Positions 20,393-22,020 of a stretch of DNA of 42,119 nucleotides are shown in pieces. A program made the translations under genes and the position numbers. Position 1 is the stretch's first letter; each line of letters opens with the position of its first letter. The stretch comes from Calothrix membranacea FACHB-236 (GTDB taxonomy: Bacteria; Cyanobacteriota; Cyanobacteriia; Cyanobacteriales; Nostocaceae): positions 1-42,119 of the forward strand of contig NZ_JACJPX010000072.1 of assembly GCF_014696315.1 (NCBI RefSeq), given 5' to 3'. The notes beneath the pieces were generated by a model. It made no database searches, was not told the DNA's origin, and saw nothing but the letters and a program-made list of their open reading frames with translations.

Positions 20393-20431
20393 TACGCTGT
20401 CATTCAGGTATTGGAAAGACGATAGATATGG

Positions 20432-20467
20432 AAATTAGAGTTGTTTAAGCTTAAACAACCCTAATTT
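20432..20467. repeat. 36-bp near-perfect palindrome
   Basis: 18-base arms meet at AAG/CTT and have one mismatch; the core is GTTGTTTAAGCTTAAACAAC-like. It lies 47 bp past the stop codon of the minus-strand 115-aa gene and could end its transcript, although no U-run follows. Confidence 0.75.
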
Positions 20468-20514
20468 GCTATCGAGATTTTTGTCAGCCTTAATATTTAT
20501 TACTTTCCAAATAT

Positions 20515-20862
20515 TTACCAATTTTTTTTCAGCAAGGATTCCAACTCAGCTTGTAAAGCGGCAAAATCCGCAACTCTTGCTACTAATAAATTATCCTTAC
20601 CTGCATCACTTAAGCGCTTTTTCCAATAATCAATACTCTCGGAATTATTTACCCAAAAATTAATGACAGTATCTACTACTTGGTCAAGATTCCAGTTCCA
20701 TTTATCTGGCACTGGTTCTATAGATTCTAAGAATGAATCTAAAGTACAAATATGCGTGCCAACGTATTCAACACCTTGATTTTTTGGTTCTTTCAGGCTT
20801 TGTTGATGATTAAAAAACTGTAAAACTGGCGATACTCCTACAATGTTAAAAGTGTATGCCAT
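20515..20862 (-). CDS. Hypothetical protein, 115 aa
   Basis: The protein begins MAYTFNIVGVSPVLQFFNHQQ and contains the Trp-rich segment PDKWNWNLDQVVDTVINFWV and then SIDYWKKRLSDAGKDNLLVARVADFAALQAELESLL. It has no membrane segment and looks like a compact alpha-rich cytoplasmic protein with an N-terminal beta strand. I do not recognise the family. Translation is well supported: GGAGG lies 6 nt upstream of ATG 20862. A CIRCE-like operator starts 140 bp upstream, shared with the divergent EamA transporter gene, so stress regulation by HrcA is conceivable. Confidence 0.75.
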   Translation of the reverse strand: MAYTFNIVGVSPVLQFFNHQQSLKEPKNQGVEYVGTHICTLDSFLESIEPVPDKWNWNLDQVVDTVINFWVNNSESIDYWKKRLSDAGKDNLLVARVADFAALQAELESLLKKNW

Positions 20863-21002
20863 TCCAGTCCTCCAAATTGTTAATCAATTATAGGGAAGTT
20901 TGAGTTTTCTTGGCAATAATTATAACTAAAATTTTCTTGATATTGTATCCAGAAAAAGTAGAGTTTGTATTTATATATTAAGTATTAAGGTTCAGTAACA
21001 AA

Positions 21003-21029
21003 TTAGCACTTACGACCTTTGAGTGCTAA
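21003..21029. promoter_or_regulatory. CIRCE-like HrcA operator
   Basis: TTAGCACTT-N9-GAGTGCTAA. The CIRCE consensus is TTAGCACTC-N9-GAGTGCTAA, so 17 of 18 arm positions match with the exact 9-nt spacer; the only deviation is the last base of the left arm. In known cyanobacteria CIRCE precedes groESL and groEL2. Here it lies 55 bp before the GTG start of an EamA transporter gene and 140 bp upstream of the divergent 115-aa gene. TTTTC follows on the plus strand, so a terminator-like role of the same dyad cannot be excluded. Confidence 0.7.
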
Positions 21030-21084
21030 TTTTCTATTAAATTTAGTAGTGTATTATTAGATAGTTTTAAACATTATTTCATGG

Positions 21085-22020
21085 GTGCAGATTATTTTTA
21101 ATAATTTTTTAAATCCATCCTTAATGAATGGGCAGGGTGAATTTGCGGCTCTAGCGGCGGCGGGTTTATGGGCTATAGCTTCGGTAGTGTATGGTCTTGT
21201 TGGGCAACATATCCCGCCAATACAGCTGAACTTGATAAAAGGAATAATTGCGATCGCTCTTTTATTGCTGACAATTGTGATCAGTGGCGAATTGTTACCC
21301 CAACTTGCTCCCTTATCTGTAGGTCTACTCTTTCTTAGCGGTGCTGTGGGTATTGGTTGGGGTGATACAGCTTTCCTCTCGGCGATTAATTACTTAGGGG
21401 CGCGTCGCGTTTTACTTTTGGGAACCCTATCGCCACCGATGACAGCGATCGCAGCAGCAATTTTTCTCAACGAACAACTCAATGTCAACGCTTGGTGCGG
21501 AATTTTGCTGACTATTTTGGGAGTCGCTTGGGTAGTAACAGAACGAGTTCCTGGGACAAGGGAGGTTGACTCAGGGTATCTATGGCAAGGTATTGGCTAT
21601 GGTTTGTTAGCAGCCATCACCAATAGTGCAGGTTCCATCTTTTCCCGTGCCGCATTTGCCAATGGCACTATTTCCCCCTTGTGGGCTGCTGTGTTGCGTT
21701 TAAGTGCCGGGGTGCTGACGATTTTGGTGTGGGTATGGTTTTCCCGCCGCCAGCAGATGGCATTTCCTTATCCCTATTGGCAATCTAGACGAGTGATTTT
21801 AGCAAGTTTCTTTGCCGCCTTTTGTGGGACGTATTTAGGTATTTGGTTGCAGCAAACAGCTATTAAACTGACATCTGTAGGTATTGCCTCAACTCTGTTG
21901 CAGACTAGTCCATTGTTTGTGATCCCTATTGCGATCGCGATGGGGGAAAAAGTAAGTTTGAGAGCGATCGCAGGTGTGGGAATTGCGATCGCTGGTATCG
22001 GATTTTTGTTTTACAGATAA
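21085..22020 (+). CDS. EamA/DMT family transporter
   Basis: A 311-aa membrane protein with about ten helices and two EamA repeats. The first (residues ~18-150) has GLWAIASVVYGLVGQHIPPIQLNLIKG; the second (~165-310) has GLLAAITNSAGSIFSRAAFANG and the closing LLQTSPLFVIPIAIAMGEKVSLRAIAGVGIAIAGIGFLF. Members of the drug/metabolite superfamily export metabolites or amino acids; the substrate cannot be deduced. The start is uncertain: GTG 21085 or ATG 21124, which would give MNGQGEFAALAAAG and a tighter N-terminus. A CIRCE-like dyad lies just upstream. The C-terminal coding region is rich in GCGATCGC sites. Confidence 0.88.
   Translation: MQIIFNNFLNPSLMNGQGEFAALAAAGLWAIASVVYGLVGQHIPPIQLNLIKGIIAIALLLLTIVISGELLPQLAPLSVGLLFLSGAVGIGWGDTAFLSAINYLGARRVLLLGTLSPPMTAIAAAIFLNEQLNVNAWCGILLTILGVAWVVTERVPGTREVDSGYLWQGIGYGLLAAITNSAGSIFSRAAFANGTISPLWAAVLRLSAGVLTILVWVWFSRRQQMAFPYPYWQSRRVILASFFAAFCGTYLGIWLQQTAIKLTSVGIASTLLQTSPLFVIPIAIAMGEKVSLRAIAGVGIAIAGIGFLFYR

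Follow-up and report, generated by a model that had tools for sequence, protein, structure and literature searches.

A conserved CIRCE element upstream of p115 in the Nostocaceae suggests that the cyanobacterial HrcA regulon has a third member

The question raised by this locus is what a well-formed heat-shock operator is doing between two genes, neither of which encodes a chaperonin. As far as the accessible parts of the literature go, the cyanobacterial genes named as bearing CIRCE, the operator of HrcA, are groESL and groEL2. The dyad considered here lies in a contig of Calothrix membranacea FACHB-236 that we analysed over its full 42,119 nucleotides (hereafter the window), between a gene for an EamA-family transporter and a divergent gene for a 115-residue protein, which we call p115 (Table 1).

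The dyad and its surroundings

The dyad, TTAGCACTTACGACCTTTGAGTGCTAA, spans positions 21003 to 21029. A pattern scan of the window showed that its arms, TTAGCACTT-N9-GAGTGCTAA, carry one mismatch to the CIRCE consensus, TTAGCACTC-N9-GAGTGCTAA, so that 17 of the 18 arm positions agree around a correct 9-bp spacer, exactly as an earlier note on this DNA had read it. It is the sole match in the window at up to three mismatches, a threshold at which dinucleotide shuffles average 0.03 matches. For sites with at most one mismatch, equal base frequencies predict 3.4e-5 in the window, which reproduces the earlier estimate of about 3 in 100,000 windows, and the actual base composition predicts 3.5e-5 per window and 0.007 per 8.81-Mb genome. 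The dyad is a genuine CIRCE. The flanks had been described as an EamA gene and a 115-aa reading frame with a strong ribosome-binding site, and the open reading frames, the Pfam EamA match and the GGAGG motif agree with that description. Homology favours ATG over GTG as the start of the EamA gene.

Across the whole genome (8.81 Mb), three sites match CIRCE with no more than one mismatch, and a further two match it with three. The other two good sites lie 17 bp before groES, in a groESL operon, and 32 bp before a stand-alone groEL (groE labels in this genome were assigned by reading the proteins and from their mutual similarity, not by family search). The genome also encodes hrcA (PF01628, 203 bits, E 2e-59). 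A CIRCE-like dyad with three mismatches (L004, G000:C35:59983-60009) lies between genes that we take to resemble psaB and psaA, and is probably due to chance.

Table 1. Features around the CIRCE, in window coordinates
Feature	Position	Strand	Basis
p115, gene for a 115-aa protein, goes with the CIRCE	20515..20862	-	ORF; profile searches; locus comparison
Ribosome-binding site of p115, GGAGGA	20868..20873	-	sequence, alignment
Promoter-like site between CIRCE and p115, TTGCCA-N18-TATAAT	20887..20916	-	11/12 positions
CIRCE, HrcA operator (TTAGCACTT-N9-GAGTGCTAA)	21003..21029	.	pattern scan; kept before p115 orthologues
Predicted -10-like element, TAATAATAC, 30 bp before the CIRCE in the p115 direction	21051..21059	-	alignment, shuffles
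EamA-family transporter gene, divergent neighbour	21124..22020 (ATG 21124 or GTG 21085)	+	Pfam EamA, 116 bits

Which neighbour the operator accompanies

The earlier note had proposed looking for the dyad before the same two genes in related genomes, and on the p115 side it is clearly kept. A p115 alignment of 27 rows, scanned against named genomes, gave 194 relatives, of which we used the best 80; these include Nostoc, Anabaena, Fischerella, Rivularia and Dolichospermum. Nostoc carneum NIES-2107 and Fischerella muscicola PCC 7414 are among the strains in which the scan found the gene. In 79 of these best 80 of 194 loci, no more than 700 bp separates p115 from a CIRCE with at most three mismatches, and at the lone exception the DNA stops 167 bp upstream. 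When 500 bp upstream was scanned in the same best 80 of 194, 78 loci held a match at up to three mismatches, while a reversed control pattern never came below six. The gap from the CIRCE to the p115 start codon is mostly 125–145 bp (best 80 of 194 loci), and is 140 bp in the window. Tandem CIRCEs precede p115 at 11 of the 79 named loci (from the best 80 of 194); among these 11 is L164, from Brasilonema sp. UFV-L1, where three copies stand about 45 bp apart.

The exact TTAGCACTT form of the site was matched in 62 of 192 Nostocaceae genomes, and p115 adjoins in 29 of 30 loci taken from these matches (the window locus included), the other, L060, being a groESL copy. Classification of 80 CIRCE loci, from which L004 and L005 were omitted, placed 50 before groES or groEL, 30 before p115 and none before any other type of gene, although the proportion is biased because mostly one locus was taken per genome and 29 were picked by their TTAGCACTT form.

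Presence and absence of the two elements also go together in this family. We found p115 in 177 of the 192 sampled Nostocaceae genomes. In a set of 58 genomes, counted by number of sites (at most two mismatches) and not by their place, the 54 with p115 each have at least three CIRCEs, and the four without it have exactly two. None of the 15 p115-less genomes among the 192, which include those four, has a third CIRCE: each has two, or one in a genome that is 89% complete, and the single CIRCE read from each precedes groESL or groEL. Applied to 98 genomes as a control, the reversed pattern found 11 sites, and a chance site can thus be expected in roughly one genome in ten.

These counts bear directly on a suggestion of the earlier note, that the site was left from a lost groEL-type gene and now serves nothing. 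In its favour, a CIRCE accompanies an additional groESL copy in one relative (L060, G145), but a relic should not be kept before p115 at 79 loci (of the best 80 of 194) in many genera, nor should the third CIRCE be missing from the 15 Nostocaceae genomes that are without p115. We have rejected this explanation, which co-conservation with p115 across genera contradicts, and regard it as exceedingly improbable. In our judgement the CIRCE at 21003–21029 very probably functions as an HrcA operator, with the divergent p115 gene under its control. From the sequence comparison, the cyanobacterial HrcA regulon most likely includes p115 as its third member, after groESL and groEL2, and, because CIRCE is kept nearly wherever p115 occurs in the Nostocaceae, p115 has likely been overlooked in the chaperonin stress response.

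The transporter gene has a less constant relationship with the operator. We looked for EamA in up to 3 kb of flank (664 bp in L101), and found it on the opposite strand at 33 of 80 named loci (best 80 of 194), L150 having a displaced fragment only. Where EamA adjoins, the CIRCE is often about 55 bp from its longest possible start (best 80 of 194 loci). It is conceivable that p115 and EamA form a divergent, stress-regulated pair repressed through a single CIRCE, and the frequent opposite-strand arrangement is consistent with this, as is the retention of a clear EamA orthologue in only two of the 15 Nostocaceae genomes without p115, which means that both genes are often missing together. However, the CIRCE stands without EamA in its flank at 46 of 79 named loci (from the best 80 of 194). 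Eight EamA loci situated away from p115, in eight genomes, showed no CIRCE, with best matches at six to eight mismatches; only two of these, G026 and G183, are from Nostocaceae, the upstream DNA of G183 being 147 bp long. Moreover, EamA and p115 are adjacent yet lack a CIRCE in G065, G068, G077 and G095, where the best match has four mismatches in G077 and seven to nine in the others. In three of the eight genomes whose EamA lies away from p115, namely G026, G066 and G094, p115 has its CIRCE elsewhere in the genome. We consider joint repression of the pair unlikely, though it is the alternative that we take most seriously. EamA as the main target is rejected, given the 46 of 79 loci with CIRCE and no EamA and the eight of eight EamA loci away from p115 with no CIRCE; at most, these comparisons would allow EamA to be a secondary target. 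The earlier proposal that both flanking genes belong to the HrcA regulon thus survives for p115, with which the CIRCE is kept, and not for EamA as an equal partner.

Outside the Nostocaceae, the association of CIRCE with p115 is patchier. The gene is present in 102 of 386 genomes sampled across the phylum. For 80 further p115 genes, those of G090 and G266 being left out, we read as much as 600 bp of upstream sequence and found a CIRCE before all 11 from Nostocaceae and before 23 of the 69 from elsewhere. By family, the site precedes p115 in 11 of 12 genomes of f41, three of three of f10, three of three of f30, two of two of f36 and one of one of f16, in two of nine of f2 and one of five of f8, and in none of four of f13, none of five of f14 and none from the other sampled families, each represented by one or two genomes. 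Since the CIRCE is missing in 46 of these 69 genomes, p115 can dispense with it. Conversely, G060, G076 and G081, sampled at order level and without p115, have a third CIRCE, and G059 has p115 without a CIRCE and two extra CIRCEs elsewhere (G059:C70, G059:C306).

The proteins of family f41 are only remotely homologous to p115 (one genome gave E values from 1.6e-11 to 4.4e-5), and the twelfth f41 site, with four mismatches and seven of nine arm pairs, fails our rule for a CIRCE. Several sites in this family are full palindromes in which the outer letters have changed (TGGCACTC-N9-GAGTGCCA), at positions -117 to -139 relative to the start. At loci L238–L241 and L266–L273 the outer arm letters co-vary (TGGCACTC...GAGTGCCA, TCAGCACTC...GAGTGCTGA), with the palindrome retained in many; judged from the letters, these variants are perhaps matched by an altered HrcA recognition.

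A p115 tree was built from 93 rows, of which 48 have a CIRCE, and at least nine changes of CIRCE state are required on it (the weak f41 site was scored as a CIRCE, and L209 was left out as too short). The link between CIRCE and p115 has therefore been gained or lost repeatedly, gains and losses being indistinguishable on a tree of 116 columns that is poorly resolved. If the regulation is as we propose, the HrcA circuit would have taken in p115 in several separate lineages.

Promoter arrangement and the p115 protein

Upstream of the CIRCE in the p115 direction, the element TAATAATAC is matched at eight or more of its nine positions in 45 of 77 loci, against about three expected in shuffles, a count that related rows inflate. 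Among aligned loci it begins at a fixed distance, 28–30 bp before the CIRCE. We predict a p115 transcription start near 21046, which would place the CIRCE just downstream; if TAATAATAC is indeed the -10 box, the operator occupies about +18 to +44, the position of a roadblock. The sequence of events that we propose is as follows. In unstressed cells, HrcA would sit on the CIRCE, shortly after the p115 promoter, and block transcription. Under heat, or some other stress by which GroEL is occupied, HrcA would lose its activity, and p115 would then be induced together with groESL and groEL2. On this scheme, the p115 protein is probably made together with the chaperonins.

A second promoter-like site, TTGCCA-N18-TATAAT, lies closer to the gene and is a possible CIRCE-independent promoter for p115. 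HrcA might bind the dyad and, given the distance, fail to block this downstream site; were p115 to be transcribed mainly from there, control by HrcA would be weak in this genus. The match is a good one, at 11 of 12 positions (20916 to 20887 on the minus strand), but among the 24 alignment rows shown TATAAT is kept in near relatives only, and outside them, where both the CIRCE and the -10-like element upstream persist, it is not kept. The region holds four sites of this kind against 3.4 in shuffles. We think it improbable that p115 mainly escapes the operator in this way, and prefer the arrangement in which HrcA would act as a roadblock to the upstream promoter.

No Pfam or NCBIfam model scored above its curated cut-off for p115 or for 10 distant homologues, searches among phages and plasmids returned nothing usable for p115, and no Rfam family reached its gathering score across 20400–21200. 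AlphaFold2, run on 47 Nostocaceae p115 sequences, gave a mean pLDDT of only 46.6 and no confident fold. Inspection of 14 loci by eye revealed no constant neighbour of p115. At L209 (G066:C1) the p115 homologue runs for only 65 aa before a stop, with a perfect CIRCE still upstream; to judge by its length, it is possibly a decayed copy.

One structural lead is a partial match to PDB 2eby (YbaQ), with E 0.0006 for the profile (positions 32–90) and E 0.0059 for the single sequence, which would fit a small helix-turn-helix regulator related to YbaQ and HigA. But this is one partial hit, with all Pfam and NCBIfam models below cut-off, and the N-terminal strand and helix in the low-confidence AlphaFold2 model do not fit a helix-turn-helix. 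For HigA itself, the genome shows only two partial matches, both below cut-off. We give this identity little credence. From the predicted co-regulation, we tentatively suggest instead that p115 encodes an accessory proteostasis factor, acting in concert with the chaperonins or alongside them. With similar caution, p115 may represent a cyanobacterial protein family, so far without a name in Pfam or NCBIfam, whose members serve as a dedicated chaperonin partner, whether as cofactor, adaptor or client-holding factor.

Comparison with known HrcA regulons

The finding would extend a known regulon by one gene. Like the established members of the cyanobacterial HrcA/CIRCE regulon, p115 bears the same operator in a genome that also encodes hrcA. 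It differs from them in that the predicted target is not a chaperonin, and in that the end of the CIRCE lies 140 bp from the p115 start codon, against 17 bp for groES and 32 bp for groEL in this genome. If the prediction is correct, the core of the CIRCE regulon in cyanobacteria would gain, with p115, its first member that is not a chaperonin. The plus-strand neighbour, by comparison, belongs to the EamA transporter family, and the CIRCE does not track it. The accessible part of a review (PMC7760821) describes how deletion of hrcA in Synechocystis also altered genes without a CIRCE. We recognised no report of p115 in the literature searched, which consisted mostly of papers available without subscription and was searched without a locus tag or name for the gene. 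A third target whose gene occurs in 177 of 192 sampled Nostocaceae genomes, and is preceded by the operator again in distant families, would offer a direct entry to an uncharacterised protein.

A close parallel is mycobacterial. According to the accessible part of PMC7448276, HrcA of M. tuberculosis represses three chaperonin genes together with ruc, whose product, Ruc (Rv0991c), was once of unknown function and later proved to be a redox-regulated chaperone. The likeness is that of a small protein whose gene is co-repressed with chaperonins by HrcA, the regulation being in the case of p115 predicted. The proteins themselves differ: Ruc is described there as having four N-terminal cysteines, forming a zinc ribbon, and a disordered tail, whereas p115 has a single cysteine, C39, and on that difference, with Ruc taken by its description only, we have rejected p115 as a member of the Ruc family. 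As a precedent the mycobacterial case is nonetheless instructive, since a leftover HrcA target there, by the same partial source (PMC7448276), later emerged as a new chaperone.
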